From positions 1 to 64,000 of the forward strand of contig JALSQX010000083.1 in the NCBI GenBank assembly GCA_026985075.1: a stretch of 64,000 nt of DNA. The letters run 5' to 3'. Under the pieces are notes generated by a model, which saw only the letters and a list, made by a program, of their open reading frames with translations, did no database searches and was not told the DNA's origin. Source of the stretch: Blastocatellia bacterium (GTDB lineage: Bacteria; Acidobacteriota; Blastocatellia; HR10; J050). Both the position numbers and the translations under genes were made by a program. Shown piece after piece: positions 13,924 to 23,035 of this stretch. Numbering within the stretch: the stretch's first letter is position 1; the number at the start of each line of letters is the position of its first letter.

Positions 13924-15090
13924 CTAACCGAGGTGACGTAAACCGTCAGCCACGGTCAGGCGAGCCGCTCGCGAAGCCGGAATCACCGTGCTCAGCAATC
14001 CCACCAAGGCCGAGGCCAGCAATCCCAGCCCAATGACCTCCCCCGTCACTTCGAATCGTTGAAAGATATTGAGTGTCAGCCGGCCAATATCCACCAGCGC
14101 GAAATGCGTGAATATGAGGCGGGCCACCAGCGAGCCGATGAGTCCTCCGGTCAACGTCATGAGCAGGCCCTCGGCGATCAACAAGGCGAGCACTTCCCGG
14201 CGACGGAAACCCAGCGATTTCATGATGGCGATCTCGCGCGTTCGCTCGCGCACGGACATGGCCATCGTATTCATCGTCACCAACAGGAGGGTGAAGAGGA
14301 TCACACCGCTGAGGGTGGCCACCAATGTTTTGAGATTCCCCAGCATGGTGAAGAATTCGGCCTGGAAAGCTCGCTCCGTCTCCGTCTTGGTGGGGGCATC
14401 GGTATTTCGGAATAAGGCATCGATCGCCTGACTCACCCGGGATACGGATGAGATGGAGTCGACCCGCAACCAGTACATGGCGGTGAATGCCGGCCAGCCC
14501 ATGGTCTCTTTCAACGCCTGCTCAAAATATTCATGGTGGAAGAAAATGCTGGACTCGTCGTTCACGCTGCCAGTGAAAATACCGCGAATGGTCAGCTCCA
14601 AATCGACGGGGAAGACCGTGCCCCGAAGGGTGATGCGATCGCCCAGGGTCCAGCCGTGCTCCTCGGCTTTCCGTCGACCCACGATGACGGCCGTGCGCTC
14701 TCGAATGAAGGCTCGCCGCTGCTCCGGTGGCAGACGGATTTCGGTGTAGATGTCGAACAGGACGCGCGGATCACAGGCGAACTGGGCAAAATCGGTATGC
14801 GCTTCATCGATGTAAATTCCACCGAACCAGGTGAACGGCGTCACAGCGACCACCCCGGGGATCTGTTCGATGCGCGCGCGATGCCTGAGCGGCAGCATGT
14901 TGGTGGGCGACACGGCGTGCCGCGTCACCAGGCGCAACGGATTAGACTCTTCCAGGTTCCGGTCGATTTCGTGAACCAACGTCAACAAGGTCGAAAGAAC
15001 GAAGATGGCCAGCGACACGCTGAGCACGGTGAGGACTGTGCGGCGTTTATTGCGCATCCCATTTTTCCAGATGAAACCCGGATAGCTCAT
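13924..15090 (-). CDS. ABC transporter permease, FtsX/MacB type (tandem paralogue 1)
   Basis: A 388-residue permease. It begins with MSYPGFIWKN, has one helix near residues 18-40, a large periplasmic domain with [15 protein letters not shown], and three C-terminal helices with [19 protein letters not shown]. It is clearly a duplicate of the next gene upstream (15161-16309): same start motif, same IDRNLEE(S/T)NPLRL segment and the same [13 protein letters not shown] motif, at about 60-70 percent identity by eye. The two copies probably form a heterodimeric membrane unit with the ATPase. Confidence 0.9.
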   Translation of the reverse strand: MSYPGFIWKNGMRNKRRTVLTVLSVSLAIFVLSTLLTLVHEIDRNLEESNPLRLVTRHAVSPTNMLPLRHRARIEQIPGVVAVTPFTWFGGIYIDEAHTDFAQFACDPRVLFDIYTEIRLPPEQRRAFIRERTAVIVGRRKAEEHGWTLGDRITLRGTVFPVDLELTIRGIFTGSVNDESSIFFHHEYFEQALKETMGWPAFTAMYWLRVDSISSVSRVSQAIDALFRNTDAPTKTETERAFQAEFFTMLGNLKTLVATLSGVILFTLLLVTMNTMAMSVRERTREIAIMKSLGFRRREVLALLIAEGLLMTLTGGLIGSLVARLIFTHFALVDIGRLTLNIFQRFEVTGEVIGLGLLASALVGLLSTVIPASRAARLTVADGLRHLG

Positions 15091-15160
15091 GCCGCTCTGA
15101 CCACGGCGCCCCTCGCGGCCGGAACGCGCTCTTCAACGGAGCCGCCCAAGAGGTCGGCCT

Positions 15161-16309
15161 TCAGCCCACATGTCGTAATCCCTCGGCGACCGTCAGACGA
15201 GCCGCGTGATAGGCGGGTATGACGGTGCTCAACAGACCGACCAGAGCGGCCACCAGCCCGCCGAGGCTGATGATCCTCCAGGACACCTCTAACTGCTGGA
15301 AGAAGCCCTGTGAGAAAGCCGCCAGGTCGATCGACGTCCAGATCAGGCGCGCGCCCAGGCAGCCGATGAGTCCCCCGGTCAAGGTGATGGCCATCCCCTC
15401 GGAGATGAGCAATCCTACTACCTGTCGGCGGCGAAAGCCGAGCGATTTCAACACGGCAATCTCGCGAATGCGCTCGCGGACGGACATGGCCATCGTGTTG
15501 GCTGTGACGAGCAGGATGGTGAAGATGATGACGCTGCTGATGGCGGCCACCAGCCCTTTGAGATTGCCTAACATGGACACAAAACCCATATTGAAGGCGC
15601 GCTCGGTCTCCGTCCGGGTGGGCGCATCGCTATTGCGAAACTGGGCATCGATGGCCTCGATGACCCGCGGCACGGAGTCCGCCGCATCGACGCGAATCCA
15701 GAAGGTGCCCACCGTCCCTTGCCACCACCCGGGGAATTCGTCCAGATACTCGCGATGGAAATAGATGGCCGCTTCCTGATTGGGCGTTCCGGCGAAGATG
15801 CCGCGTAACGTCAATTCCAGATCTACTGGATAGATGGCGCCCTTGAGCGTGATCTTGTCGCCGAGCTTCCAGCCGTGTTTCTCGGCCTTGCGGCGACCGA
15901 CGATCACGCCGGTGCGGTCTTTGATGAAGGCTTCCTTCTGCTCGGGAGGGAGCGCGATCTCCGGATAGACATCGAATAAGGTTTTGGCGTCACAGGCGAA
16001 CTGCATGAAATCAGTATGCGCCTCATCGATGTAAATGCCTCCGAACCACGTCAGCGGTGTTACGGCGACCACTCCGGGGATGCTCTCGATCCGAGCCCGA
16101 TAGCGCACGGGCAGAGGATTGGTGAGGGATACGGCGTGCCGAGTGATCAATCGCAAAGGGTTGGTCTCCTCCAGGTTGCGATCGATCTCCTTGACGAAGG
16201 TGACCAACGTGGAGAGAACGAATAGCGCCAAGGCTACGCTCAGCATGGTCAGGATGGCGCGGCGCTTATTGCGCGTCCCGTTTCTCCAGACGAAACCCGA
16301 ATAACTCAT
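15161..16309 (-). CDS. ABC transporter permease, FtsX/MacB type (tandem paralogue 2)
   Basis: A 382-residue permease, paralogous to the downstream gene at 13924-15090. It starts [11 protein letters not shown], has the periplasmic motif [13 protein letters not shown], and the C-terminal FtsX block [19 protein letters not shown]. Its ATG overlaps the stop of the ATPase gene by four bases (ATGA at 16306-16309), so translation of ATPase and permease is coupled. Confidence 0.9.
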
Positions 16310-17016
16310 GCGCGCTCCTCCACCGTGTAGGTGACGCCCGGCGGGAGAAGGACGCCTTTCTCCAGATGCCGCTCATGCTTGGCATAGTGGGCCGCCCGAG
16401 GATCATGAGTGACCAGAATGATCGTCTTATGAAGCTGCTCGTTCAACTGCTGGAGCAAGGTGAGAATCTCCTCGGCCGAGCGCGCATCCAGGTTCCCCGT
16501 CGGCTCATCAGCCAGAATGATCGTCGGATCGGTGACGATGGCGCGGGCGATGGCCACCCGCTGCTCCTGACCGCCCGACAATTGTCGCGGATAATGATCG
16601 ACGCGATCGGCCAATCCGACCAGCTTCAGCGCCGTCAATACATGCTCGCGTCGTTCCTGGCCGGAGAGGCCGGTGAGCAGGAGGGGAAGTTCAACATTCT
16701 CGAAAGCGGTGAGGACGGGGATTAAATTGAACGTTTGAAAGACGAATCCGACATGATGATTGCGCCATTCGGCCAGCTCATCCTCGTTCATCCGCTGAAC
16801 TTCAATCCCCCCAACGCGAACCACGCCCGACGTGGGTTTATCCAGACCCGCGATGATATTGAGCAACGTTGTCTTGCCCGAACCCGAGGGCCCCATTAAA
16901 GCCAGAAAGTCGCCCTCGGGGATGTCCAGATTGATATCCTTCAATGCCACCACTTCGACGCTATCGCGTCGAAAGATGCGACTCAGATTCCTGATCTCCA
17001 CTAACGGCTGTGTCAT
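16306..17016 (-). CDS. ABC transporter ATP-binding protein (LolD/MacB-like)
   Basis: A 236-residue ATPase. It shows Walker [10 protein letters not shown] (about 41-49), the Q-loop in [10 protein letters not shown], the signature LSGGQ (about 144), Walker [13 protein letters not shown] and the H-loop His in LVTHDP. The sequence type is that of LolD/MacB ATPases, which power mechanotransmission or efflux through FtsX-type permeases. It lies between the fusion-protein gene (24 bases upstream) and the permeases, completing a tripartite-like export system. No outer-membrane TolC-type gene is visible nearby. Confidence 0.93.
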
Positions 17017-17039
17017 CTCACCCCTCCCCTATGCGATGT

Positions 17040-18413
17040 TCAATCATCTCCTTCCCTGACCGTGACGCGGTCTCCATCTCGCAGCGCCTCCTGTCCACCG
17101 ATGATCACCCGCTCGCCGCCTCGCAATCCATCGAGGATTTCCACATACCCGGCTTCCTCCTTTCCAACGGTGACCGGCTGCATGACGGCCTTCCCATCCT
17201 GCACCAGGAAAACGACCGGCCGCCCGTTGCGCGTGACCACCGCCGCCCGAGGCACCATCACCGTCGCCCCTTGAGACGGCGCTTCCACGCCTTTTTCGTA
17301 GAACGTCACTTTGGCGCCCATATCGGGCCGCAGAAACGCATCCGGATCGAGCACCTTCACTTTGACTTCGATGGTCGCTTTCTGCCGATCGGCTACCGAG
17401 GCGATGTACTCGACAACACCCCGATAGTGACGATCCGGATAGGCATCGGGGGTGATCACCACCGGTTGATCGAGCTGCACTTTGGCAATGTCCGCCTCGG
17501 TGATATCCAGCTCCACCTGGAGATCGCTGAGGTCGGCGATGGTGACCAGGGCCTGTTTGGCGCCTCGGTCGGAAGTGAACCCCGTCGTCACCATTTCGCC
17601 CACATCGACATAGCGGTCCAGGACAGTCCCCGTGATGGGCGCGCGGATGATCGTATTGTCGAGCTGGGCCTGAGCGAAGGCCAGCGCCGCTTCCGCCTGA
17701 TGCACCTGAGCGCGAGCCAGCTCGATGGCTTCCTGCCGAGGGCCAATGCGGGCCAGTTCGTAATCTTTCTTGGCCGCTTCATACGCGTTCAGGGCCATCT
17801 CGTAGCGCGCCCGGGCATCGTCGAGCGCCTGCTGTTGAAGCACGCCCTCCCGGACCAGGCGCTCCGTGCGACCGAGGGCGATCTCCGCATTCCTGAGGTC
17901 GGCTCGGGCACGGTCCATCTGCGCTTTGGCGCGCTCAATCTCCTGAGGCCGCGAGCCGGCCTCCAACTCGGCCAGCCGGGCGCGCGCCGCTTCCAGGTTG
18001 GCTCGAGCCTGATGGACCTGAGCGCGAAGTTCGCGATCGTCCAGGCGAGCGATGATCTGACCGCGCCGGACAACATCGCCCTCATCGACGAACAGAGCGA
18101 CGACGCGGCCCGTGATCTTGGAGCCCACCTCCACCTGATTCCGGGCGATGACATATCCGCTGGCCGACAACACCGGCGCCGGTCCGCCAGCTCCGCGCCG
18201 CGATGCCAGGGCCACGCGAACCGCCCGAGCCCCCAATCCCAACCGCGTCTTCAGGTCCAACTGGCTCACCCCCAGCGCGATCACGGCGAAAATCGCCACT
18301 ACCCCCGCAATGACCGCCCAGCGCGGAAGACGCCACTGGCGCTCGGCCACCCGCTGGCGGTCGATCCGCAGGACCTGCAGGTCTTCCTTCAATTGCCGCT
18401 GTGACTGATCCAT
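17040..18413 (-). CDS. Periplasmic adaptor (HlyD/MacA-type membrane fusion protein)
   Basis: A 457-residue adaptor. It has a cytoplasmic N-terminus, one helix near residues 30-50, a lipoyl half-motif (VGSKITGRVVALFVDEGDVV), a very long Ala/Arg/Glu-rich coiled-coil hairpin (about 115-245), the second lipoyl half with TIIRAPITGTVLDRYV, a beta-barrel and a C-terminal membrane-proximal domain. Such proteins bridge an inner-membrane ABC transporter to an outer-membrane channel. It is the first gene of the five-gene ABC operon. The ATG has only a weak upstream GTGGA. Confidence 0.9.
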   Translation of the reverse strand: MDQSQRQLKEDLQVLRIDRQRVAERQWRLPRWAVIAGVVAIFAVIALGVSQLDLKTRLGLGARAVRVALASRRGAGGPAPVLSASGYVIARNQVEVGSKITGRVVALFVDEGDVVRRGQIIARLDDRELRAQVHQARANLEAARARLAELEAGSRPQEIERAKAQMDRARADLRNAEIALGRTERLVREGVLQQQALDDARARYEMALNAYEAAKKDYELARIGPRQEAIELARAQVHQAEAALAFAQAQLDNTIIRAPITGTVLDRYVDVGEMVTTGFTSDRGAKQALVTIADLSDLQVELDITEADIAKVQLDQPVVITPDAYPDRHYRGVVEYIASVADRQKATIEVKVKVLDPDAFLRPDMGAKVTFYEKGVEAPSQGATVMVPRAAVVTRNGRPVVFLVQDGKAVMQPVTVGKEEAGYVEILDGLRGGERVIIGGQEALRDGDRVTVREGDD

Positions 18414-18649
18414 TTTTCCACACTTATGATACGTGCTTCCAGCACGACTGACAATAAAAAAACCGTCAGCCGTCGCAGAGCCGAGCGAGCCGTCGAATTT
18501 CCGGGTGGAGAGGCTCTCTCGACCACGCGAAGGAGCAGTCCGCCGGAGCGATCATCGTCGCCTCGACGCTACTCTGCCCTCGTCGACGCGACCGATCAAT
18601 GGAGGGCGCCGAGCACCATCGCTCGAGGGAAGCGCGATTGCTGTGCCAT

Positions 18650-19100
18650 GAAATGTCATGTCTATCAAGCTTTACTCATCGACGCCCGCGATCGACTCTA
18701 CCACGTCTATTCGGATGGACGGAAGGTACGCGCCGATGATACGAACGGGCGACTCCTGAACCAGATGGTCGTCTCCCTCGACGACCGCATGTCTCCGTCA
18801 CCCGCCGATTCGGTGGAGCGAAGCATTCTGGGAGCATTCGTGTGGCCCGATCGCCTCGCCCTGTCTCTCGGCACGACGTATCGTGCCGCCGATGGCGCTC
18901 TTGTTCGCACCGAATGTTATACACGGCTCATAGATCCTCTCACCGGTTCACAAACGATCCTCACCCCCGCACCAGGAGCCTATCCGGCAGTGACGATGGG
19001 ACTGGACGGATATGCCTATGCGGTGATCCATTCCCCTGATCCTCACATGGGGACGGCATCATTCATCATCGCCCGGGAAGAGATTCTGACAAGGCGATAG
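18650..19100 (+). pseudogene. C-terminal remnant of a secreted beta-propeller protein
   Basis: The reading frame from about 18650 to the TAG... stop at 19100 resembles the C-terminal 145 residues of the propeller protein at 21929-23035. Matching blocks are YQALLIDARDRLYHVYSDG against FQALLIDDRDRIHHIYLDG, VERSILGAFVWPD against IERSIVGAFAWRD, and IIAREEIL at the end against VIHKEELV. The frame stays open upstream to 18426, but that part is Ser/Arg-rich and unrelated, and no signal peptide or propeller N-terminus remains. I read this as a truncated third copy of the island's propeller gene. A short expressed protein from ATG 18650 cannot be excluded, although no good ribosome-binding site precedes it. 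Confidence 0.65.
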
Positions 19101-19557: not shown

Positions 19558-19776
19558 ATGCGCCAGCACCGTCTGTTTTTTTGTCCACAGTGTCATCGGC
19601 AGACCGTCTGGCTCAACGTCCAGCAGGCCTGCCGACTCATCGAGGTGGATCGCCGCACGCTCTATCGCTACATGGAGCAGGGCAAGATCGCCTATCGCCA
19701 GAGGCCGAGTGGACGCGGGCGCTTCGTCTGTCACGATTGCTTGCTCAAACTGCCTGAAGAAGATGTTGGTCAATGA
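19558..19776 (+). CDS. Small DNA-binding protein: helix-turn-helix within a zinc ribbon
   Basis: A 72-residue protein. It begins with FFCPQCHRQT (CxxC), follows with an excisionase/MerR-like helix-turn-helix (VQQACRLIEVDRRTLYRYMEQGKI), and closes with a second pair, FVCHDC. The four Cys could bind one zinc and tie the two ends of the HTH together. ATG 19558 follows AGGAG at good spacing; an upstream ATG at 19525 would add eleven unconvincing residues. It lies directly before the duplicated Cys-rich/propeller cassette, so it may regulate it; that is inference from position. Confidence 0.72.
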   Translation: MRQHRLFFCPQCHRQTVWLNVQQACRLIEVDRRTLYRYMEQGKIAYRQRPSGRGRFVCHDCLLKLPEEDVGQ

Positions 19777-19927
19777 CGTCGCTCATCCTCTCCATTTCAT
19801 GAGTCGATACGGGCCGCAGGCCATGCGCGATTCACGTTATGAGTCAGGATGAGACAGGAGGAGTCAGCATGTGGTTGATGAGCCTCTCCAGTTCCGGTAA
19901 GATAGAGATGAGGAGGGCTTAAGGTTC

Positions 19928-20272
19928 ATGGTGGCGAAAGGAATGAACCGGTCCCGATTTTTGTTGATTGGGAGCCTCTTGATCTGGATGATGAATCCCC
20001 GAGATCTATCAGGGGGCACCGCATCGAATTCCTCTATGATATATTGCCCTAACACTGGGATCCAGTGTTACAGATTCACGTGCGTCGATTCTAGCGGTCA
20101 AGAGATCACCTGCAGAGATTATACGGTTGTCCCTCGAACAGGAGTGCAGGCCATTTTTGCCGGGACTGAAGAGCTTTCATGCCAAACTCCGCATTGTTCG
20201 GTTAGGAATTACTTTGTGTTACTCTGCCTTGATGATCAGCCCGAGCCTGATCCTGGGGATGGACCCAAGTAG
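19928..20272 (+). CDS. Small secreted Cys-rich protein, cassette copy A
   Basis: A 114-residue protein of no family I recognise. Residues 1-32 look like a signal peptide (basic MVAKGMNRSR, hydrophobic FLLIGSLLIWMM, cut around GGTASN). The mature part of about 80 residues carries seven Cys, in YCPNTGIQCYRFTC, ITC, SCQTPHC and LLC, and ends in an acidic, Pro-rich tail. Disulfide bonding in the periplasm or outside is likely. The start region GAGGAGGGCTTAAGGTTCAT resembles that of copy B at 21535 (GAGGAGGACGTAAGGTCCAT), which supports ATG 19928. A propeller gene follows after 32 bases. The stretch is less GC-rich than its surroundings. Confidence 0.65.
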   Translation: MVAKGMNRSRFLLIGSLLIWMMNPRDLSGGTASNSSMIYCPNTGIQCYRFTCVDSSGQEITCRDYTVVPRTGVQAIFAGTEELSCQTPHCSVRNYFVLLCLDDQPEPDPGDGPK

Positions 20273-20304
20273 ACCATACCAGAAATAATCGTGAGGAGGA
20301 ATCT

Positions 20305-21510
20305 ATGTCCCGAAGCGTGTTCTTATTGGTCACAATGATACTCCTGGGGCTCTCGTCAGGAGGAGTAGGTCAGGCCAGGGAGCGAGAAAGAGACAAACCC
20401 CGTGCCAAGGTCAAGATCATCTCCCATGTTGATCTCTCTGTAGCGTCAGCAGAGTCGGGACCCTCTTCACAGGTCCATCGGAGGAATGAATCGCCCTTCA
20501 CACTCGGTCGTCCGGCCGTCGCTGTAGACGGGGCTGGATACATCTATGCGTACGTCTCTCTGTCTGACGGAGCGACATATTCTCATCATCAACTCATCAA
20601 ATATGATGCTACTGGGAAGATCATAGCCACCTTTCGGCTCCCCGAATATGTGAAGCGAGGTGTTGCTGGCCTCAATTCGCTCACTCTGTATCGAGAGAAG
20701 CTCTATGCTCCCGCGGCCTGGCACAATGAATGGGGAGAAGTTCAAGGCGGTGTCCTCATCTTTTCCGATCAAGGTGATGTCGAACGCCTCATCGAGCTTC
20801 CACTCCATTTTACGCCCGATCGAGTGCTTGTGGCGCCCTCAGGGATCATGTATATTGTGGGCACCGGGCCACAGATGCGTAATGGCCAACTCACATACGT
20901 GGGCTCCCCGATGGTCCTGAAGCTCGACTCCCGCGGGCGGCTTCTCAAGGCATTCTCGCCTCTCCCGGCTGAGACGCCCGATGAGACGCTCGATCTATTG
21001 AGCCGCTCGCTGCAGAACGAGCTCCTGCTCGACGACCAGGGTCACCTGCTTCATGTTCTGCCCGACGCTCGAATCAGAGTGTTCAGTGCGGATGGAGAAT
21101 GGCTCGACACGCTATCGCCATCCCTGAGGGCGTTCGACGTTCTGTCGGCAGCATTCTGGTATGATGGATATCTCGTGCTGGCCACCGACCGTCTGGTCGA
21201 GCAGCGGGCCTCTCTGTACTTCATCGACAGGAAGGGGGAGGTCGTCACCCGCGTAGAGACCACCGGTCAATCCTTGCCCGTGGTAGCGGGACATGATGGC
21301 TTTTATTACGGCGTAGCTCGTCTAGCATCTAGTGGACTGGAGGACCGGATTCGCTTTCGCATCATCAAGCTGGATCTGAGCGCTGAGATTCCCTCTCGTC
21401 GCTCGAGCCGAGTCCGATTGACCATTGGCCGTGAATCGCCTCTGGCCTCGATGGTCATTTCACGCCCAGTCGAATTTGGACATCCCTCAGAAACCGCTCA
21501 CGGAGTATAA
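20305..21510 (+). CDS. Secreted six-bladed beta-propeller-like protein, cassette copy A
   Basis: A 401-residue exported protein with signal peptide MSRSVFLLVTMILLGLSSGG, cut near VGQA. The mature part consists of repeating beta-sheet units of the NHL/TolB-like kind: VAVDGAGYIYAYVS, HHQLIKYDATGKIIATFRLP, GGVLIFSDQGDVERLIELP, LDDQGHLLHVLPD, VFSADGEWLDTLSP. No catalytic motif is visible, so a binding or scaffold role is likely. GAGGAGG precedes the ATG. It lies between the two Cys-rich protein genes (25 bases before copy B) and shares overall plan and length with the propeller at 21929-23035. Confidence 0.75.
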   Translation: MSRSVFLLVTMILLGLSSGGVGQARERERDKPRAKVKIISHVDLSVASAESGPSSQVHRRNESPFTLGRPAVAVDGAGYIYAYVSLSDGATYSHHQLIKYDATGKIIATFRLPEYVKRGVAGLNSLTLYREKLYAPAAWHNEWGEVQGGVLIFSDQGDVERLIELPLHFTPDRVLVAPSGIMYIVGTGPQMRNGQLTYVGSPMVLKLDSRGRLLKAFSPLPAETPDETLDLLSRSLQNELLLDDQGHLLHVLPDARIRVFSADGEWLDTLSPSLRAFDVLSAAFWYDGYLVLATDRLVEQRASLYFIDRKGEVVTRVETTGQSLPVVAGHDGFYYGVARLASSGLEDRIRFRIIKLDLSAEIPSRRSSRVRLTIGRESPLASMVISRPVEFGHPSETAHGV

Positions 21511-21534
21511 ATCTATGAGGAGGACGTAAGGTCC

Positions 21535-21903
21535 ATGGATGTGAAAAAATGGTTCATCATCATGACTATCCTCTCACCATGGTTGTTGACGGCTCACTCG
21601 GGATTACCGGCGAAGGTTCCTTCGGCTGAAAATATCGACACTATAACCTCGGAAATTTACACCAGAACTCCACTCACTACCGAGTGTTGGACGGAGGTAG
21701 TTTGGGGTACTCGCGTCTGCGATGCAATTTGTGATCTGACGCCCGTAACGTGGGAGTGTCCGTATGCTACGTGCCAAAGGAGTTTCGTCAACACCTACTG
21801 TGTTCTTGAGATCGAGGTCTGTCAGAAATGGTTCTTCAGCGGTTGCGATCCGGCCTGTGCCACATTGATCGGGCATAATGAAATATGCTTCCCGCCGCTC
21901 TAA
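21535..21903 (+). CDS. Small secreted Cys-rich protein, cassette copy B
   Basis: A 122-residue protein. The signal peptide spans about residues 1-24 (MDVKKW, then FIIMTILSPWLLTAHS). The mature part holds ten Cys: TEC, RVCDAIC, WEC, ATC, TYC, EVC, SGCDPAC and EIC. The Cys spacing differs from copy A, so the proteins share position, size and export rather than close sequence. Start at ATG 21535 behind AGGAGGACGTAAGGTCC. The propeller gene begins 25 bases after its stop. No known family recognised; candidates include a structural surface protein or a secreted ligand of the propeller. Confidence 0.65.
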   Translation: MDVKKWFIIMTILSPWLLTAHSGLPAKVPSAENIDTITSEIYTRTPLTTECWTEVVWGTRVCDAICDLTPVTWECPYATCQRSFVNTYCVLEIEVCQKWFFSGCDPACATLIGHNEICFPPL

Positions 21904-21928
21904 TCGGCGTGATGTGGAGGAAGGTTTC

Positions 21929-23035
21929 ATGAACCGATGTCCCATCTCATGCCATGGCCTTATCCTTCTGGTCGCGAGTGCAATGCTCGCCACCGGCCTC
22001 TCCATTGAAGGAGCGCCGCGTCACGAACGAGAAGGTCGCATCAAGAGCCTCTCTTATCGACTGATCGAGAAGATCCGCCTGGAGGGAGACCCGGAGATCG
22101 TCCGACTGGCCGTGGATGCCGAAGGAAATTTTTACGTCATTGGAGGAGAAGGTTCTGTGGTGAAGAAGTATGCTCCTTCAGGTCGCCACCTTCTGACCAT
22201 CGATTTGACCGAGGTCCTCAAAACATCTCGCATCAGCGTCTACGATATGTTCATTCATCCTCGCGGAGCGCTCTATCTGCTTGTGGTGTGGATTGCGCCC
22301 GATGGGAGTCGCCCATTCGGCGGCGTGCTCATTCTCGATGGGCAAGGGCGGGTGCGACGACTCATCGAGCTGGCGCTGATTTTGAGAATCACCGGAAGAC
22401 ACTCCCTGGTCGTCGATTCGACCGGCGCATTCTATATCCTGGCCCTCCTTCAGCGAACGCACGATCCTGACTCGCCGCTGGTGACCGAGAACGTCATCCA
22501 CAAGTTCGCCCCCTCCGGCGAATGGCTTCGCTCGTTCTCTCCGCTGACCGAGCGGTTCACTCGCCAACGCTGTCTGGATACCAGGGAGTTTCAGGCGCTG
22601 CTCATCGACGACCGGGATCGGATTCATCACATTTATCTGGACGGAACGGAGATCCGCAGTTTCACCCCCGACGGCCACCTGTTGAGCCTCTATCGCATTT
22701 CCTATCCACTGAGGCCGCGCCCGATAGAAGAATCCGAGAGACCCGTTCCCCGCATCGAGCGGAGCATCGTCGGAGCATTCGCGTGGAGAGACGTTCTCAT
22801 CCTCTCCGCCATCGAGACGCCGTTGACGGCGACCGGCGAGGCTATCAGCTTCCCGGAGGGATATGCGCTGATGATCGATCCGTTGAAAAAATCGATGCGG
22901 ATCGTCGGCCGGGGAAATGTCCTCCTGCCGGGAATGATGCTGGGTCGCGATGGCCACTGCTACGCATTCTCTCACCATCACGAGAACGGGCAGGCCTGGT
23001 TTGTCATCCATAAAGAAGAACTCGTCCGGCAATGA
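21929..23035 (+). CDS. Secreted six-bladed beta-propeller-like protein, cassette copy B
   Basis: A 368-residue exported protein. ATG 21929 was chosen because GTGGAGGAAGG lies just upstream and a signal peptide follows at once (MNRCPISCHGLILLVASAM, cut after about 30 residues); the longer frame from 21878 overlaps the preceding gene. Repeats of the NHL/TolB-like type are visible: RLAVDAEGNFYVIGGEG, VKKYAPSGRHLLTIDL, LILDGQGRVRRLIEL, LVVDSTGAFYILALL, LIDDRDRIHHIYLDG. The C-terminal half matches the remnant at 18650-19100. No enzyme motif seen. Confidence 0.75.
   Translation: MNRCPISCHGLILLVASAMLATGLSIEGAPRHEREGRIKSLSYRLIEKIRLEGDPEIVRLAVDAEGNFYVIGGEGSVVKKYAPSGRHLLTIDLTEVLKTSRISVYDMFIHPRGALYLLVVWIAPDGSRPFGGVLILDGQGRVRRLIELALILRITGRHSLVVDSTGAFYILALLQRTHDPDSPLVTENVIHKFAPSGEWLRSFSPLTERFTRQRCLDTREFQALLIDDRDRIHHIYLDGTEIRSFTPDGHLLSLYRISYPLRPRPIEESERPVPRIERSIVGAFAWRDVLILSAIETPLTATGEAISFPEGYALMIDPLKKSMRIVGRGNVLLPGMMLGRDGHCYAFSHHHENGQAWFVIHKEELVRQ

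Follow-up and report, generated by a model that had tools for sequence, protein, structure and literature searches.

Two tandem pairs of genes for a small cysteine-rich exported protein and an exported propeller in a Blastocatellia genome, candidates for a cognate recognition module

The window (the whole 64 kb stretch of DNA analysed here) carries two tandem gene pairs, each encoding a small exported cysteine-rich protein followed by an exported propeller (Table 1). All four open reading frames lie where a first-pass annotation, made from the sequence alone, had placed them, and their start codons and ribosome-binding sites fit. The same annotation gave the gaps as 32, 25 and 25 bases; the first (P0001–P0002) and last (P0003–P0004) are 32 and 25, and the middle one (P0002–P0003) is 24, a difference of one base. 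The ribosome-binding regions, which it described as similar, are indeed alike: a near-repeat of the 24-base segment spanning the ribosome-binding site and start of small gene 1 precedes small gene 2. A longer reading of propeller 2, starting at 21878, was rejected, as it would overlap small gene 2 and a better ribosome-binding site (ggaggaagg) precedes 21929. A third, truncated propeller, absent from that annotation, lies upstream of the pairs.

Table 1. Features of the paired-gene locus. Positions are those of the window.
Feature	Position	Strand	Description
Third-propeller remnant, C-terminal half	18627..19097	+	39-40% identity to P0004
Pair 1 upstream region	19790..19927	+	about 110 bp copied before pair 2 in the sister species
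RBS/start segment, small gene 1	19908..19931	+	24 bases: atgaggagggcttaaggttcatgg
Small protein 1 (P0001)	19928..20272	+	114 aa, 7 Cys, Sec-type signal by inspection
Propeller 1 (P0002)	20305..21510	+	401 aa, exported; mature part without Cys
RBS/start segment, small gene 2	21515..21538	+	24 bases: atgaggaggacgtaaggtccatgg
Small protein 2 (P0003)	21535..21903	+	122 aa, exported, 10 Cys
Propeller 2 (P0004)	21929..23035	+	368 aa, exported

Inspection by eye finds Sec-signal-like N-termini on all four proteins and no anchor, sorting signal or lipobox in any of them. None is covered by a Pfam or NCBIfam family; the small proteins match neither a PADLOC anti-phage defence model nor a PDB sequence family, and P0002 has no match on plasmids. 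The two propellers are paralogues (32% identity over 203 aa, E 5e-13). The small proteins had been described as sharing export and a high cysteine count rather than sequence, and this holds, alignment and profile comparison both detecting no relationship between P0001 and P0003. Both are acidic (net charge −4 to −9), and their genes have GC3 values of 0.54 and 0.58, against 0.70 (sd 0.05) for genes of the genome. Small exported proteins with many cysteines escape gene finders easily, and most were missed by the codon-based caller used here; a mechanical rule (60–220 aa, a hydrophobic N-terminus, at least six Cys after it, and a ribosome-binding site) matches six ORFs in 794 kb of the same genome (about one per 132 kb, some of them spurious) and exactly two in the window, both in the cassettes.

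Directly upstream of the cassettes, at 19558–19776 (+), is a gene for a 72-aa HTH_17/zinc-ribbon-like DNA-binding protein (Pfam E 4.4e-9); it could be a regulator, and its region is conserved in the sister species. Divergent from the cassettes, at 13924–18413 (−), are genes for two MacB-type permeases, an ABC ATPase and an HlyD-type adaptor, a possible exporter with no demonstrated link to them.

The propeller alignment has too little conservation in any one stretch to seed a search for related loci; such a search with P0004 matched only the sister species G001 (RFHM01000204, Acidobacteria bacterium isolate J050). Compared with it, the four genes have dN/dS values of 0.19, 0.24, 0.28 and 0.28 (0.19 for small gene 1 and 0.28 for small gene 2), which indicates that all four are real, constrained genes under purifying selection; every cysteine of P0001 and P0003 is retained, and the P0002 copy stops after 362 aa. 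Part of the pair 1 upstream region is duplicated before pair 2 in G001, whereas in the window upstream sharing between the pairs is confined to the 24-base segment. In G001 an N-terminal piece of the third propeller also precedes small gene 1; since the window keeps a C-terminal remnant, the loss of this copy seems to have taken two different routes.

An AlphaFold2 model of P0004, computed from P0004 and three related sequences from the window and G001, is of moderate quality (pLDDT 72.6, pTM 0.74), and the order of its strands is consistent with six blades of four strands each, closed by strands from both ends. NHL domains rank first in a Foldseek search with this model (TRIM2 and Brat, E about 1e-9), and a propeller profile searched against PDB sequences finds the NHL domain of Thin (E 1.7e-4). 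The window propellers do not reach the cut-off of the Pfam NHL repeat, and a relative (L016) scores 17 bits against a cut-off of 20. At this moderate level of confidence, propeller 2 fits a six-bladed NHL-type propeller, like Brat, TRIM2, Thin and the PknD sensor in fold and in weak sequence similarity; the window propellers differ from these in being exported and in having no RNA-binding or kinase context. The model of P0003 (pLDDT 41.8) is too poor for use.

The structure of methylamine dehydrogenase also joins a small chain with many disulfides to a propeller, and this shared general architecture raises the thought of a two-subunit redox enzyme, with a cysteine-rich light chain seated on a propeller heavy chain. 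We consider this very improbable. No mau genes were seen nearby, the small proteins have no significant sequence match among PDB chains, and the propeller profile matches NHL domains, not methylamine dehydrogenase. Two cofactor tryptophans mark that family, and mature P0001 has no tryptophan, which precludes a TTQ or CTQ cofactor in small protein 1. Membership is thus largely refuted; the likeness would be one of working principle at most, with no match of sequence or fold.

A layout of this kind is familiar from the Bacteroidota, where NVEALA peptides adjoin TolB-like or DUF5128 six-bladed propellers, and the first-pass annotation had drawn that comparison. The layout stands, a small exported gene adjoining that of an exported propeller in both cases; kinship of the proteins does not, P0002 and P0004 giving no match to TolB_like (PF15869) or DUF5128 (PF17170) at E values up to 10 and the small proteins belonging to no family. 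The present pairs differ further in that the small proteins are cysteine-rich and both genes are exchanged together. The comparison and the gene order would suit a propeller that processes a small exported precursor peptide, as would a cluster in G008 that combines a redoxin–DUF5128 propeller, a 94-aa peptide with 10 Cys and ABC-2 permeases. Such a maturation role, which the annotation had suggested alongside binding and display, is nonetheless improbable: no modifying enzyme, such as a radical SAM enzyme or a protease, was noticed beside the pairs, the small proteins carry a Sec signal and not a RiPP leader, and the propellers have no recognisable enzyme family.

The G008 cluster (L062 8257–13530, at 58.2–63.5 kb of G008:C11) lies next to a type A cassette (see below) and encodes ABC-2/DUF3526 permeases and an AhpC-TSA/DUF5128 propeller protein; its peptide has a weak Syntroph_Cxxx match. 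This locus is closer to the NVEALA/TolB system than the window pairs are.

Relatives were searched for adjoining small cysteine-rich genes, as the annotation had proposed, by gathering related propellers by homology alone and then inspecting their neighbours. The order was sampled with ten genomes, the class with 162 and the phylum with 396; all are drafts, with at least one metagenomic assembly among them. An exported cysteine-rich neighbour is present at 10 of 13 related propeller loci (subfamilies A, C and D in five species, G001 duplicates left out) and at none of 17 other propeller loci of the same order, a difference for which the Fisher p of about 1e-5 is a guide only, as the species are related and the 13 loci are not fully independent because three of the five species share one genus. 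NHL control loci have no adjoining small gene.

The propellers fall into four subfamilies, A to D. Type A comprises the window pairs and one locus each in G004, G008 and G009, where a Trp-rich small protein with 12 Cys is encoded 29–68 bp upstream of the propeller. At the type C loci (G000:C36, G008:C16 and G009:C3) the small gene overlaps or touches the propeller start, and the small proteins of two of the three have the motif C..DQWC..P in common; among the 162 genomes, type C small genes occur beside type C propellers only. Type D (G004, G006, G008 and G009) has its small gene, where intact, 3 bp upstream. For type B the exported cysteine-rich protein follows the propeller instead of preceding it. 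Another family of the class (G010) has a gene for 188 aa with 15 Cys and then one for a 342-aa exported propeller, and across the phylum sample no convincing A- or D-type propeller was found outside the order, two matches being weak (E 2–4e-7).

Exported cysteine-rich proteins follow type B propellers at L063 3258–4532 and L068 6909–7295; one such follower has 424 aa, 18 Cys and weak MopE-like metal-binding and EF-hand matches. The type C contig G000:C36 holds an array (L066 1029–6800) of a propeller, a small protein with 12 Cys, a second propeller and an exported protein with 16 Cys, together with an orphan propeller fragment that repeats 226 bp at 99% identity.

The two window pairs have different relatives. 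Outside the genus, P0002 is closest to type D propellers (26.9% over 323 aa, E 1.7e-22; 28% over 280 aa, E 1.7e-17), and P0001 appears, by a modest margin, to resemble the small partner of these propellers, which belong to another family of the order: a type D small-protein profile gives it 12.4 bits, against 11.3 for the best of 2000 Cys-fixed shuffles, and the alignment is colinear over F.C..S.G....C.D..VVP. A profile of P0001 with the type D proteins finds small genes in exactly the six propeller-carrying genomes of the order, beside the propeller, and in none of the other four; as P0001 is in its own profile, only the co-occurrence of small gene and propeller among type D loci counts here as an independent observation. 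Pair 1 is thus probably an old pair, both members of which are conserved in a second family of the order. P0003 has a homologue in the sister species and none outside the genus among the 162 genomes of the class. The relatives of propeller 2 carry a different cysteine-rich small gene in the same position, and profile comparison detects no similarity between P0003 and these A3 small proteins.

The sister species G008 and G009 each carry a type A and a type C cassette, which are unlinked and neither of which sits at a contig end. Flanking genes of the two species mostly have 84–97% protein identity and dS of 0.16–0.38. At the type A cassette, dS is 0.62 for the propeller (67% aa identity) and 2.6 for the small gene (44%), with 0.16–0.47 for the genes around it; at the type C cassette it is 1.13 for the propeller (67%), and the small gene is saturated (63%). 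DNA identity in sliding windows falls to 41–78% over the type C pair, against mostly 85–97% in the flanks; it is lower still in the spacer before the pair and recovers at the propeller end, and the edges of divergence are sharp at the pair. The type A pair has 44–81%, and the rise downstream is more gradual. Type D shows no divergence in excess of its flanks. In the congeners G005 and G007 the type A site is empty, the same flanking genes having no cassette between them. In these comparisons the pair behaves as one exchangeable unit. Between G000 and G001 the relation is reversed, the cassettes (dS 0.17–0.22) being less diverged than their flanks (0.32–0.48); this may reflect exchange and proves nothing, and hypervariability is thus demonstrated for G008 and G009 only.

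The annotation had held that propeller homologues without a small exported neighbour would make the pairing incidental. One full-length close propeller, at G000:C49, does lack a typical small partner, and at two type D loci the propeller is intact and the small gene is interrupted by an in-frame nonsense codon (TGA in G008, TAG in G006), so that the propeller may act alone. Recoding of these stops was rejected, as the codon is TGA in one species and TAG in the other and neither is at a Cys position. The pairing is therefore not obligatory, and these loci are what speaks for mere incidental neighbourhood. That reading is refuted within the order, and we regard it as scarcely credible, by the 10 of 13 loci against 0 of 17, the conservation of pair 1 across families and divergence as a block, all of which indicate that the pairing is not incidental. 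That the two genes of each pair form a unit is strongly supported by these sequence comparisons, since the pairing recurs in several subfamilies, pair 1 crosses families and the pair diverges as a block.

We propose that a two-gene cassette encoding cognate exported partners is present here twice in full and a third time as a remnant. Its products, a disulfide-rich small protein and an NHL-type propeller with six blades, would be translated together, would leave the cytoplasm through the Sec system and would fold oxidatively beyond it; as both are exported, that is also where they would meet. There the small acidic protein would dock on its own propeller, which would present, carry or neutralise it. 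At fixed sites in the genome, gain, loss and replacement of alleles would affect both genes of a pair together, and the pair would serve specific recognition on the cell surface or within the periplasm, either of kin or competitors or in escape from predators or phages. Adjacency, co-inheritance and joint replacement are as expected of cognate partners, and whole-pair replacement at fixed sites suits recognition better than a housekeeping role; the disulfides, the physical docking and the recognition role are the parts that we infer. For a cognate exported pair serving recognition in the envelope or outside the cell, we judge the chances to be about even.

The strongest rival to a bound recognition pair is a secreted effector–immunity system, in which the small disulfide-rich protein would harm close competitors, at their surface or in their periplasm, and the exported propeller would protect the producer. 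It would account for the replacement of the unit in sister species and its presence or absence at a fixed site, for the tandem copies and orphan propeller fragments, and for propellers retained where the small gene is broken, as with orphan immunity genes; unit replacement and retention of the partner after loss of the effector are found in relatives, not in the window. There is also a precedent for a propeller-like periplasmic immunity protein in Tsi1, the partial beta-propeller that protects against Tse1 (PMC3391265). Tse1 and Tsi1 resemble the present pairs in that an effector gene lies beside that of the immunity protein; the pairs described here have no known effector domain, no type VI secretion link was seen, the propeller is a full six-bladed one and both proteins have export signals. 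Against this reading, no toxin family or defence model was matched (Pfam, NCBIfam, PADLOC), the small proteins are acidic, unlike typical membrane-active peptides, and the pairs are not consistently accompanied by dedicated delivery machinery. On balance we find it rather unlikely. Bacterial cis-defensins, one of which is reported from Acidobacteria, are likewise small secreted cysteine-rich peptides (PMC11561630); no propeller is mentioned there, and the present proteins are acidic with 7–12 Cys.

Propellers are common docking platforms. A third possibility is surface decoration or ligand binding, with the propeller as scaffold and the small protein as a variable adhesive or antigenic cap under pressure from phages or predators. 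Exported pairs that vary and yet remain under purifying selection would fit; the absence of any visible anchor, sorting signal or lipobox does not, and we think this unlikely.

Genes for self-recognition or competition often diverge far more than their neighbours. Going further than the cognate-pair reading, and only tentatively, we suggest that these are previously undescribed polymorphic cassettes of Acidobacteria, each pairing a hypervariable disulfide-rich protein with its cognate NHL propeller as lock and key, that serve kin recognition or interbacterial competition and are reshuffled among fixed positions on the chromosome. A recognition or competition module would provide the Acidobacteria, common bacteria that are difficult to culture, with a weapon or identity system specific to the lineage. 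As the cognate partner would adjoin, binding, specificity and toxicity would be testable with a single two-gene construct, and the fixed sites, which occur filled, diverged or empty, form a natural experiment.

Several other exported proteins were noted in these genomes. A repeat-like one of 560–580 aa, with no Pfam match, recurs near the propellers of this family in several of the genomes (L042, L057, L015 and L062). An exported protein with 9 Cys stands alone at L211 6978–7388 (G006:C105), with no propeller alongside, and one with 14 Cys and a Cys-Gly/Ser-rich repeat run lies close to a contig end at L099 13319–13855 (G000:C28). A hydrophobic 129-aa protein with 8 Cys and a bacteriocin-like look (L015 9588–9977, G009:C47) adjoins ABC transporter genes. 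At the start of G000:C44 (L114 1–516), an ORF cut by the contig end has a propeller-like first part and a tail with 10 Cys, possibly a natural fusion of a propeller with its cysteine-rich partner.
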